IMG/VR virus record: IMGVR_UViG_3300043395_000119
Coordinates: 1 to 29,671 of that record
Direction: 5' to 3' (one strand)
DNA length: 29,671 nt
From: a virus
The notes beneath the pieces were generated by a model. The model ran no database searches. It worked only from the letters and a program-made list of their open reading frames with translations, and had not been told where the DNA came from. The first letter of the stretch is position 1, and each line of letters begins with the position of its first letter. A program made the translations under genes and the position numbers. Shown here piece after piece: positions 5,108 to 27,848 of this stretch.

Positions 5108-5352
5108 TGTGCCTTCTTCTTTCCTACATATGTTCCGTATACTGTTAATGTAAATTCGTAATAATCTTCTATATGGTTATATTGTATCGTGAAGTTAGGG
5201 TCTATGTCAAGTCTTTGAACATAGCCCTCTTCACGCATCTCTTCAATTTTTAATTTTGTTACTTCTAACCTTAACCTGCTGATAGCAGAATCACTCTTGA
5301 TGATACCGTCAAGTTTAAAAGTCTTAATAGATTTGTGATGTAATTGTTCCAC
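5008..5352 (-). CDS. Small protein of unknown function between helicase and primase
   Basis: A 114-residue protein starting at a GTG (5350-5352). I do not recognise the family. Residues 1-75 look like a compact alpha/beta domain: a helix rich in K and E (about 24-43), then alternating hydrophobic strands (FTIQYN, YEFTLTVYGTY). The last 33 or so residues are low-complexity, basic and probably disordered. They are encoded in the 100 bases shared with the primase gene in another frame, so they may be only a by-product of the overlap. No clear Shine-Dalgarno is seen, but TATAAT lies five bases upstream of the GTG. Position suggests a replication accessory role, which is inference. Confidence 0.65.
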   Translation of the reverse strand: MEQLHHKSIKTFKLDGIIKSDSAISRLRLEVTKLKIEEMREEGYVQRLDIDPNFTIQYNHIEDYYEFTLTVYGTYVGKKKAQCTQGIDGTSLVPIQKNKLKESSLGQVSKSNQK

Positions 5353-7116: not shown

Positions 7117-7647
7117 TTAAATAGATTCAGACCAAATAGGGACAAATCGTCCATCGTCAGTCTTGGTATATACCAGTATACCATCCCCCATACGTCTTGT
7201 CAACTCCTGTTTTGTAGGAGTTACATCGTTGGTTATTAGACCATCTTTACGAGGTCTGCCATGATGATAGGATGCCAGTATATCACGAAGTTCACGAACT
7301 TGCGACTCCGAATAATAACTTCTTACCTGCCAGCCTCTGGCTCCGCCCTTTTGAGACCCCATAGGCTCTGGCACAATACCTTTTCTTACTAATTCTGGCA
7401 TATATTTTTTGTGACGATTAACCAAAGATGCAGTTTCGCCAACTGTATATGCACGTTCTCTGTTCTTTTTGAAATCACTAATTAAACAACTTTCAATCCT
7501 GTCTTGAATAATATTATAAACAGACATAATTCCATTAGATTTATTTAAGTGATGAACACGAACAAGTTCTCCATTCAGAAACCAGACTTTTTTACTACCT
7601 GGAATAATTGGAGCAGCGTTATACTCTTCCATTGTTAGGGCAGCCAT
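7117..7647 (-). CDS. MerR-like helix-turn-helix DNA-binding protein
   Basis: A 176-residue protein with a MerR/excisionase-type winged helix-turn-helix in the middle. Residues 66-95 (start AYTVGETASLVNRHKKYM, then PELVRKGIVPEP) match the family pattern Y-x-hGE-hA..., followed by helix 2 and the L-R-x-G-hhP turn. RSYYSESQVRELRDIL at 109-124 fits the wing and following helix. Flanking this are an N-terminal domain with a beta-like stretch (KKVWFLNGELVRVHHL) and a C-terminal basic tail with GRPRKDG at 130-136. It starts at the TAATG overlap with the last tail gene and sits exactly between the tail and replication modules. A regulator of phage transcription is the simplest reading; a DNA-end or recombination accessory is possible. 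Confidence 0.75.
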   Translation of the reverse strand: MAALTMEEYNAAPIIPGSKKVWFLNGELVRVHHLNKSNGIMSVYNIIQDRIESCLISDFKKNRERAYTVGETASLVNRHKKYMPELVRKGIVPEPMGSQKGGARGWQVRSYYSESQVRELRDILASYHHGRPRKDGLITNDVTPTKQELTRRMGDGILVYTKTDDGRFVPIWSESI

Positions 7648-8075
7648 TATACTCCAATAGCGATAATGCTTATATCTAGAGTAGTGTTGCCATCTTTATC
7701 ATAATCAATTTTATAATATACCGCAGAACTATCAACACCTGTGATTGTTAGTGTTGCTTTAACAGTAGAAGAACTACGAGACATCAGAGTTGCGGTAACA
7801 ATTGGTGTTTGACCAAACTGAGTATTAAAAGAAATTTGTCCAGTTGTTGGAGATTTAACGGTGACGTTAGAGGAGTTAATTACGTTAACAACCCTAGCCT
7901 GAAATTTAATATTATTTGTTTTAACAGAAACTGGTTGGTCTGTATATGTCTGAACCTGAGAAGTTCCTGTAGATGCCAATTCACCATTAATGCTAATAAG
8001 AGAATTAACAATATCGTACAAATATTGAGTGTCAATGGGTTGTCCATTGCTTGGTAGTGAAGGTACTGTTGCCAT
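7647..8075 (-). CDS. Small tail-tip or fibre protein with lectin-like C-terminal half
   Basis: A 142-residue virion-type protein. Residues 1-60 contain a short helix (TQYLYDIVNSLISINGEL) that could trimerise or anchor the protein. Residues 80-142 are a predicted beta-sandwich, with FNTQFGQTPIVTATLM and alternating strands to the end. The F-x-x-x-F-x-x-x-P-x-V spacing resembles H-type-lectin-like tail fibre domains, so a receptor- or sugar-binding role is plausible but not proven. It is the last gene of the tail module. No Shine-Dalgarno precedes its ATG. Instead TGGTATAAT sits six bases upstream, so it may be expressed from its own leaderless transcript. Confidence 0.65.
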   Translation of the reverse strand: MATVPSLPSNGQPIDTQYLYDIVNSLISINGELASTGTSQVQTYTDQPVSVKTNNIKFQARVVNVINSSNVTVKSPTTGQISFNTQFGQTPIVTATLMSRSSSTVKATLTITGVDSSAVYYKIDYDKDGNTTLDISIIAIGV

Positions 8076-25934: not shown

Positions 25935-26261
25935 TTAGCCGTTAATTAGACCACCCATTAGTGATGCTTCACTAAGTTTGATACCAGATGCCTCTTCGAC
26001 AATCTTGTATACGGTTGGAAGGTCTAGCAATTCTTCTAGTGCCTTCAGGTCTTCGGCTTTTTCTGGAGCGTACTGCTTAAGAGCAATCTGGACACACTCC
26101 ATGAGAAGAGTCATTGACTTTTCGTTATTATCTGCCACCTCGGCAATCTTTTCAAATTTTGACATGAAAGGACGAAGTAGTGAGATTTTAAGTGGACGAA
26201 CAGGAATGCTAGTTCCGTCCAATAGTTCTACAGTTTTTGTTTCGTTTACAGTTGTAGACAT
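25935..26261 (-). CDS. Tail assembly chaperone, short G-like protein
   Basis: A 108-residue chaperone-like protein that would coat the tape measure during tail assembly. It aligns end to end with residues 1-94 of the neighbouring 234-residue protein: E-T-x3-E-L-x-D-G-T, then PLKI-x2-LR-x-FM, KQY-x-P and DLPT-x-YKI-x-E-x3-GIK. It ends just after the shared domain, so it is the G-only form. Its ATG at 26261 has a strong AAGGAGG site (26266-26272) and its own extended -10 promoter. The tape measure starts 17 bases downstream. Unlike classical phages, I found no slippery site or out-of-frame extension that would give a G-T fusion from this gene. Confidence 0.8.
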   Translation of the reverse strand: MSTTVNETKTVELLDGTSIPVRPLKISLLRPFMSKFEKIAEVADNNEKSMTLLMECVQIALKQYAPEKAEDLKALEELLDLPTVYKIVEEASGIKLSEASLMGGLING

Positions 26262-26265
26262 GAAT

Positions 26266-26272
26266 CCTCCTT
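26266..26272 (-). promoter_or_regulatory. Strong ribosome binding site of the short chaperone gene
   Basis: AAGGAGG on the minus strand, four bases from the ATG at 26261. It is the strongest such site that I see in the tail module and contrasts with the absence of any site before the related long chaperone gene at 27010. Confidence 0.8.
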
Positions 26273-26286
26273 ATGGTTTCTAGTCA

Positions 26287-26295
26287 ATTATAACA
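26287..26295 (-). promoter_or_regulatory. Extended -10 promoter for the short chaperone and tape measure
   Basis: TGT-TATAAT on the minus strand, a perfect extended -10, lies in the 44-base gap between the two chaperone genes. A weak -35 candidate (CTCACA) is 17 bases upstream. Transcription would start near 26280, giving a leader of about 19 bases that still contains the AAGGAGG site. This would give the short chaperone a second source of mRNA. Confidence 0.55.
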
Positions 26296-26305
26296 TAAAG
26301 ATTGA

Positions 26306-27010
26306 CTATTGTGAGACAACTTCGTAGTCAAGACCGAAGCCAATACCGAATCCAGCCTTAGCAGCACGTTCTCCCTGATAAGAAATAATATCATTAGGGT
26401 CACTAGTAGCACCATTTGAGGCTACCCTGGCTTTCATTGCTTCCCAAGGGTCTACCTCATCATTCTTACCACTAGCATTATCTAAGTCTACCCCTTGCAT
26501 TGCAGCCAAGAACTTCTTTTCGTTATAATCCAGTTCTCTGATAGACTCAAGGATAGCCATTAGTTCTGGCATAGATAGGTTTGTTTCTATTTCATCAAAG
26601 TTTTTCCAAGCACCCAAGACAAACAATTCTGATTCCAATTTAACCAAATCTAGTTTTTCCCAACTATCGTCTTTGTCTCTTGGTTGTTGCTTTGGCTGTG
26701 GATTACTATTAGTTTCATCAACCTTATTCATCTTGATACCTGCACAATATTCAATAATTTTATAGATTGTTGGAAGGTCAATATTGTCTTCTACTTTTTC
26801 TACAGTTGCTAGTGATGGATAATACTGCTTCATTGATACCGCCACACATTTGGTTAAAACTACCAAGGATTGTTCGTCATTCATTGAATCATTAATTAAA
26901 TTAAAATACTCCATAAACTGTCTTAGGTATTTTATCTTCAATGGACCAATCTCTAATTTGGTTCCGTCAACTAGTTCTATTTCAGTAGTTTCGTATATTT
27001 TTGTAGGCAT
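26306..27010 (-). CDS. Tail assembly chaperone, long G+T-like protein in one frame
   Basis: A 234-residue protein. Residues 1-94 are the chaperone domain shared with the 108-residue neighbour. A P/Q/D-rich linker (SNPQPKQQPRDKDDSWEK) follows. The C-terminal region resembles the T part of frameshifted chaperones in other phages: ELDYNEKKFLAAMQGVDLD at about 165-184, DPWEAMKARVASNGATSDPNDI at 193-214, then AAKAGFGIGFGLDYEVVSQ at the end. Here the whole G+T layout is read in one frame. The start ATG at 27010 has no Shine-Dalgarno; an extended -10 box sits six bases upstream and a terminator just before that. Expression is therefore likely low compared with the short form. Confidence 0.8.
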   Translation of the reverse strand: MPTKIYETTEIELVDGTKLEIGPLKIKYLRQFMEYFNLINDSMNDEQSLVVLTKCVAVSMKQYYPSLATVEKVEDNIDLPTIYKIIEYCAGIKMNKVDETNSNPQPKQQPRDKDDSWEKLDLVKLESELFVLGAWKNFDEIETNLSMPELMAILESIRELDYNEKKFLAAMQGVDLDNASGKNDEVDPWEAMKARVASNGATSDPNDIISYQGERAAKAGFGIGFGLDYEVVSQ

Positions 27011-27016
27011 TAATAT

Positions 27017-27025
27017 ATTATACCA
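27017..27025 (-). promoter_or_regulatory. Extended -10 promoter directly before ATG (leaderless start candidate)
   Basis: TGG-TATAAT on the minus strand with six bases (ATATTA) before the ATG at 27010, so the expected start of transcription falls on the ATG itself. There is no -35; that region is taken up by the terminator stem. No ribosome binding site is present. Confidence 0.5.
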
Positions 27026-27060
27026 AAAAGAAACTGCCCCAGGAGCAATCCCAGGGCAGT
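27023..27060 (-). terminator. Intrinsic terminator after the major tail gene
   Basis: On the minus strand ACTGCCCTGGGA and TCCTGGGGCAGT form a 12-bp stem with two G-U wobbles and a four-base loop (TTGC), followed by TTTCTTTTT. On the plus strand the two wobbles become mismatches, so the terminator is oriented for minus-strand transcripts. It begins 17 bases after the major tail stop codon and would limit read-through into the chaperone and tape measure genes. Confidence 0.9.
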
Positions 27061-27077
27061 CTCAACACTATTAAATT

Positions 27078-27848
27078 TTAGTAGTTGCGGTCAACAATCT
27101 TACCGTAAGTACCGTTGTCGTCTGGAAGCAGACGGAATGATACTTCGAAAGCAGTTGCTGAGTCACGCTTCGCTGATACTGTAACTGAATCGATTGAAAC
27201 AGCACGGTATGCGATGTAGACACGCTCTGCCTGGTCGCTGAGTGAAGGAGTTCCTGTCACACCAGACTTGTTTCCAACTCCTGGACCAACAGCGATAATA
27301 CCACGTTCGATTGGGTAGTCACCAAGGTCACCAGATGTTAGGTTTAGGAATCGTCCTGAGTCAACTACAGTTGCAACTAGTGTTGCAGCAGTGACAGAAC
27401 TTCCGTATAGACCAGCGGTTAGGCTAGCAAGACCCTGTGTTTCAAGTTGAGTCTCGTTAAGGTTAACTGTACCAAAGTCAGATGTCTTACCAGCAATTGC
27501 TAGGAGAAGGTTCTCCAGGGTTGCTTCGGCAAGAGTTGTCTTCAGTGTAACCTTCATACCCTGCTTAAAGATTTTAGCGGTGTCTAGTAGTTGGTCTACC
27601 ATAACCTCACCAAAGTCTGGAGCAAAGGTAAGTTCCAAACCGTTGTTTGTGTAACCAACGTTGCGGAATGCTGGAGAACCAGTAGGAGTAATTGCAGGGT
27701 TGTATCGTAGTGAGAGAGTCTCACGGTATGATTCACCAGCAACAAAACCTGGGATGGTTGTAGCAGTTAGCGAGTTTGAGTCGGTTGTAACGAATAGAGC
27801 AGCAGCACCAACTAGAATGTTGGTATTTGTACCTCTTGTATATGCCAT
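27078..27848 (-). CDS. Major tail (tube) protein
   Basis: A 256-residue protein predicted to form the tail tube. It is beta-rich with few charges, and includes GLELTFAPDFGEVMVDQLLD (about 71-90), a pattern that fits phage tube proteins in which a strand leads to a helix. VSAKRDSATAFEVSFRLLPD near the end fits a final beta-hairpin. The size, the position between the tail terminator and chaperone genes, and the strong expression signals (own promoter, leader of about 47 bases, GAGGTG site at 27856-27861 seven bases from the ATG, terminator after it) all fit the most abundant tail protein. An added Ig-like domain is not evident. Confidence 0.88.
   Translation of the reverse strand: MAYTRGTNTNILVGAAALFVTTDSNSLTATTIPGFVAGESYRETLSLRYNPAITPTGSPAFRNVGYTNNGLELTFAPDFGEVMVDQLLDTAKIFKQGMKVTLKTTLAEATLENLLLAIAGKTSDFGTVNLNETQLETQGLASLTAGLYGSSVTAATLVATVVDSGRFLNLTSGDLGDYPIERGIIAVGPGVGNKSGVTGTPSLSDQAERVYIAYRAVSIDSVTVSAKRDSATAFEVSFRLLPDDNGTYGKIVDRNY

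Follow-up and report, generated by a model that had tools for sequence, protein, structure and literature searches.

Two adjacent genes, one encoding an in-frame GT protein and the other a paralogous G protein, likely form a tail chaperone system in which, on the evidence of sequence comparison, gene duplication and unequal initiation have replaced ribosome slippage. Most long-tailed phages obtain the two forms of the tail chaperone by such slippage, and the G/GT frameshift is among the most conserved recoding events of these phages. The replacement, proposed in a preliminary description of the sequence, was supported by the paralogy of the two proteins, by the missing slippery site and by opposed start signals in 171 related loci. 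From these signals, and from what is known of phages lambda and TP901-1, we infer an excess of G over GT.

The sequence analysed (the window) is the whole 29,671-base IMG/VR record. On the minus strand, the genes follow each other in the order of major tail protein, GT, G and tape measure protein. The preliminary description had reported a long ORF of 234 aa in one frame and a separate G-only ORF of 108 aa, and both were recovered with exactly the same coordinates on the minus strand. The features of the locus are as follows.

27078..27848, minus strand: major tail protein gene; matches phrog_2175 (Ig domain) at 1.9e-28 and phrog_885 (major tail protein) at 2e-4
27026..27059, minus strand: intrinsic terminator of the major tail gene; hairpin CTGCCCTGGG/CCTGGGGCAG with a T-run
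27017..27025, minus strand: extended -10 promoter TGGTATAAT of GT; consensus match, predicted leaderless start
26306..27010, minus strand: GT gene, 234 aa, single reading frame; G domain at residues 1-96, linker at 97-116, T domain at 117-234
26287..26295, minus strand: extended -10 promoter TGTTATAAT of G, located between the two genes; consensus match
26266..26272, minus strand: Shine-Dalgarno AAGGAGG of G; duplex -11.1 kcal/mol
25935..26261, minus strand: G gene, the G-only paralogue, 108 aa
17371..25917, minus strand: tape measure protein gene, 2848 aa; matches annotated relatives in position and length

The tape measure gene starts 17 nt past the G stop, and the major tail gene has the position of the annotated major tail proteins in Coruscant, Kenrey, Sham and BillNye. 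All promoters given here are consensus matches only.

Alignment of the two proteins, which had been described as related, gave 42 identical residues out of 98 (43%) for G against residues 1-98 of GT, with the E-value of 8e-26; the two proteins are therefore paralogues. The median dN/dS was 0.10 for the G part of GT (G1), 0.064 for the separate G (G2) and 0.068 for T, values that indicate purifying selection. A chance similarity of two ORFs is excluded by the E-value together with dN/dS, and the low dN/dS shows that both genes have been maintained.

The survey of relatives combined five IMG/VR scans with phage records and produced 347 loci, some of which share a contig. We observed that the arrangement of the window is retained in relatives, 270 of the 347 loci having GT in one frame and a separate G behind it. 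Another 73 loci, including those of the Streptomyces phages of Stanwilliamsviridae, had a single G, with T in an overlap in the -1 frame and a second G absent (frameshift-type loci). The remaining four loci were incomplete, three of them cut at a contig edge (L068, L223 and L274) and one, L089, with a frame break. This last one (L089:1-647) is a two-gene locus with the break in the GT frame near the contig edge, either a sequencing error or a real mutation. None of the 347 loci combined a frameshift with a second G, and none had an in-frame GT with a complete downstream region from which G was missing.

With incomplete copies and identical proteins taken out, 171 two-gene loci and 53 frameshift-type loci were left. 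The 171 distinct homologous loci share the T domain, the G paralogue, a GT without a Shine-Dalgarno (with the few exceptions counted below) and a G with one. Since relatives retain all the features of the arrangement, it is not a matter of chance.

At the same place in the genome, the Streptomyces phages of Stanwilliamsviridae have a single G gene with T in the -1 frame, and several GenBank records name the two as tail assembly chaperones connected through a frameshift. An overlap of G and T was also seen in the Rhodococcus phages Trina and Francesca. No second place matching the GT or the G query was found in the phage records searched. By sequence relationship, the window belongs to an uncultured siphovirus lineage related to Stanwilliamsviridae, and the host is probably actinobacterial, judging from the kinship with the Streptomyces and Rhodococcus phages.

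An attempt to find the host through GTDB genomes was set aside, as the sole match was weak evidence on a host. This match is a frameshift-type relative (L188, CAINGU010000031.1) situated on a 110-kb contig, likely a phage contig, in a MAG of an 'uncultured cyanobacterium'.

The start signals of the two genes are of opposite kinds. In the window, GT has no Shine-Dalgarno, and TGGTATAAT is located exactly 6 nt before its ATG, a spacing that puts the predicted transcription start on the ATG itself. Among the 171 two-gene loci, the -10 box of GT was within 10 nt of the ATG in 162 and at exactly 6 nt in 107. With the threshold for a Shine-Dalgarno-like duplex set at -6 kcal/mol or better, only four of the 171 GT upstream regions reached it (mean -2.9), leaving 167 GT genes without a Shine-Dalgarno. 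The near -10 box and the missing Shine-Dalgarno are the sequence features of leaderless genes, which have been described as lacking a Shine-Dalgarno and having a -10 box that precedes the start codon by about 10-12 bp (PMC3160421). The earlier suggestion of a possible leaderless start of GT, as a prediction, extends to nearly all of the two-gene loci.

Conversely, the G gene of the window has TGTTATAAT 25 nt before its ATG as well as AAGGAGG, as had been noticed initially. The Shine-Dalgarno of G was strong in all 171 loci (mean -10.5), and a -10 box was found 20 to 44 nt before the start in all 171, with the sequence TATAAT in 167. When the -10 boxes of the two genes were compared within each locus, the consensus match of G was better than that of GT in 121 loci, equal in 49 and worse in one.

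A terminator upstream of GT had been listed in the preliminary description among the particulars of the long gene. The terminator is indeed present (27059-27026), and a terminator-like hairpin precedes GT in 94 of 94 distinct two-gene loci compared to 5 of 94 shuffled sequences. It is not specific to the two-gene arrangement, though, as 43 of the 45 frameshift-type relatives have it too, at the end of the major tail gene. Because the frameshift types share it, we consider it to be the ancestral terminator of the major tail gene, and for the same reason a role as a part of the ratio device is excluded. No terminator was found between GT and G in the two-gene loci.

The most likely course of events is as follows. 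The ancestor had one gene that gave G and, by -1 frameshifting, a minor G-T fusion. As the trees described below show, G was then duplicated once. Comparison of the locus types shows that the upstream copy was fused in frame to T, with a loss of the slippery site and of the Shine-Dalgarno, and that the downstream copy lost T and kept a promoter, a leader and a Shine-Dalgarno of the ancestral type. GT would now be made from a leaderless transcript predicted to begin at its ATG, and such transcripts could continue through G, since no terminator separates the two genes. G would be made both from this read-through and from its own, usually better-matching promoter, with a predicted strong Shine-Dalgarno-led translation. 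As in lambda, many G molecules would coat the tape measure protein per molecule of GT, and the T domain of GT would recruit the tube subunit.

A forced gpG-gpT fusion in phage TP901-1 gave normal-looking but non-infectious particles (PMC4493119), which argues that an in-frame fusion needs a separate G beside it. The absence of loci with only an in-frame GT fits that result.

It is conceivable, if rather unlikely in our judgment, that the ratio is not set by initiation, with the leaderless GT translated about as well as G and with the transcript levels, turnover or selective incorporation acting instead. Leaderless genes are normal in Actinobacteria, where they make up about 19% of the genes (PMC3160421); since leaderless mRNAs are common there and can be translated well, the missing Shine-Dalgarno does not prove a low level of GT. 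Also, transcription by itself could yield an excess of G, as G has its own promoter and is reached by GT transcripts. On the other hand, it is GT alone that has lost the Shine-Dalgarno. The frameshift-type G resembles the separate G in this respect, with a Shine-Dalgarno in 51 of 53 loci and a near -10 box in only 2 of 53, compared to a Shine-Dalgarno in 171 of 171 for the separate G. Besides, leaderless-type starts are otherwise rare around the locus, with 69 observed at GT and 3 elsewhere.

The history of the duplication was read from trees. In the G2 + T tree, the two-gene loci grouped together as a single clade (100/99), which lies inside a grade of frameshift-type loci. An earlier T-only tree, with fewer frameshift-type rows, implied a second transition (L154 beside L182) with weak support, which was dropped after denser sampling and the G2 + T tree. 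The tree of G domains grouped the G part of GT into one clade (100/99) on a long branch, and the separate G into another (100/98) beside the closest frameshift-type G (99/85). As G1 and G2 each make one clade, repeated or ongoing duplication and gene conversion are ruled out.

The topologies and branch lengths show one duplication, to the frameshift as the ancestral state and to a separate G that continued to evolve at the ancestral pace. From these sequences, frameshifting appears to have been lost a single time, together with the acquisition of the separate G. Since the start signals were fixed by that single evolutionary event, the counts of loci given above speak of maintenance and not of independent origins. 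Fisher tests across the loci are given no weight for the same reason, the loci being no independent samples.

Pairwise identity averaged 70% for the separate G, 67% for T and 53% for the G part of GT. In 93% of locus pairs the identity was higher for the separate G, and the G part of GT (26723..27010, minus strand) and its homologues are thus the faster-evolving copy. These rates, together with the long branch of the G part of GT, could be taken to mean that the separate G is a subfunctionalised paralogue, serving another stretch of the tape measure or another partner, and that the G part of GT has an altered role. We regard this as improbable, because the separate G keeps the ancestral branch, the rate and the promoter and Shine-Dalgarno layout of the frameshift-type G. 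Moreover, frameshift and second G never occur in the same locus, which is what one would expect of a second G that does no more than supply the G form again.

The reading by duplication and initiation implies that slippage is gone from the two-gene loci. In the frameshift-type loci, canonical in-frame slippery heptamers (CCCAAAT, CCCAAAC, GGGAAAC or GGGAAAA) were found in 43 of 53 cases, and the remaining 10 had CCCGGAA at the corresponding place. The Stanwilliamsviridae phages (Coruscant, Kenrey, BillNye, Yaboi, Wakanda and Sham) have homologous G and T domains, the same neighbours and the same major-tail terminator as the window. They differ in having a single G with a Shine-Dalgarno, T in the -1 frame and, in the overlap, either CCCAAAT, in frame as C_CCA_AAT, or, in the Coruscant-like phages, CCCGGAA. 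None of the 94 distinct two-gene loci had an in-frame X_XXY_YYZ heptamer within the last 25 codons of G. Past the G stop of the two-gene loci, the median length of the open -1 frame is 7 codons, and the start of the tape measure gene lies in most cases within about 15-29 nt. Frameshift-type loci are recognised by T in another frame that overlaps G at its end and by a slippery site; in the 270 two-gene loci GT is read in one frame.

A slippery site with an out-of-frame extension was thus sought in the two-gene relatives, and none was conserved, in agreement with the original claim of no frameshift. A cryptic recoding that is still active, for example slippage in the GT linker leading to a short G-like product, seems very improbable to us. 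Codons 80-130 of GT do contain some in-frame X_XXY_YYZ heptamer in 37 of the 94 loci, but these heptamers are scattered, of many kinds and not conserved among the 94 loci, most of which have none, and the last 25 codons of G are free of them throughout.

The proteins are identified as chaperones from their homology, their place in the genome and a fold match, which is weak. In the profile search that the preliminary description had recommended, G and the N-terminal part of GT both matched phrog_10504, and the C-terminal part of GT matched another family, phrog_10474. The PHROG families are unnamed, and the Pfam and NCBIfam searches of the GT and G proteins gave nothing over the cut-off. A sequence search of the PDB gave no credible match. 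With tblastn, the matches to the G and T pieces of Coruscant had E-values down to 7e-35; the annotations of these pieces are themselves based on homology, place and frameshift.

The AlphaFold model of G (pLDDT 78) has a beta-hairpin and four helices, and that of GT (pLDDT 66) has a G-like fold followed by a helical T region. Tail assembly chaperones were the named best neighbours of the models in a viral structure library, and the top PDB match of the G model was the HK97 tail assembly chaperone 2ob9, which is a weak match (E 0.44, TM 0.33). Despite the unnamed families, the empty Pfam and NCBIfam searches and the weak PDB match, it is hardly credible that the genes are something other than tail assembly chaperones, as homologues with the same neighbours are annotated as such, with G/GT frameshift pairs, and the structural neighbours, the weak PDB match included, are chaperones.

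In lambda, a G:GT ratio of about 30:1 is produced by -1 slippage in one gene, unlike the two genes of the system studied here. The division of labour in lambda, where G binds the tape measure and T recruits the tail tube (PMC5009743), would be shared by our system.

The two-gene principle is not new, because Hardies et al. (2007) gave the same logic for the Bacillus phage 0305phi8-36, in which gp143/gp144 make a two-gene tail chaperonin without a frameshift (PMC2147016). There, too, paralogous genes act as G and GT, and the GT-like gene was reported to have no recognisable ribosome binding site (PMC2147016). Compared by description, our locus has the same traits, separate paralogous G and GT genes and a GT without a Shine-Dalgarno (167/171). 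Unlike that myovirus, the lineage studied here is a siphovirus lineage with GT first and a predicted leaderless promoter, and it has close frameshift-type relatives, so that the change can be polarised. An origin independent of gp143/gp144 is likely, since the duplication studied here arose inside frameshift-type relatives. Microbacterium cluster EA phages are similar in having two separately expressed chaperone ORFs with no evident frameshift (PMC7302621); by description only, and in the part of that paper used here, a G paralogue beside an in-frame GT is not reported.

With respect to the open-access literature, the GT-G order, the leaderless and leadered pair, the breadth of the clade and the polarised single transition are new. 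We favour, by a modest degree, the broader reading that a phage lineage swapped the near-universal frameshift for a duplicated gene with opposed start modes, the leaderless one for the minor product and the Shine-Dalgarno-led one for the major product, and has retained them together since. If true, the control of the chaperone ratio would have moved from elongation to initiation, where it could respond to the state of the promoter and of the ribosome.

One clade without the frameshift among close relatives that have it would provide a natural experiment that separates the importance of slippage as such from that of the G:GT ratio alone, because the loss of the frameshift coincides with the gain of the second G. 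The order of GT then G ahead of the tape measure gene could also serve as an annotation signature for many environmental viral contigs, whose PHROG families are unnamed.

Two other genes of the window have leaderless-looking starts, both on the minus strand. The gene at 8075..7647 is preceded by TGGTATAAT-TAAGAC-ATG and the gene at 5352 by TATAAT-AGAGT-GTG. Extended -10 sites (TGnTAYAHT) occur 15 times in the window on the gene strand and four times on the other, compared to about 6 expected per strand from shuffles. Several of these sites directly precede genes, which suggests more promoters within the late region.
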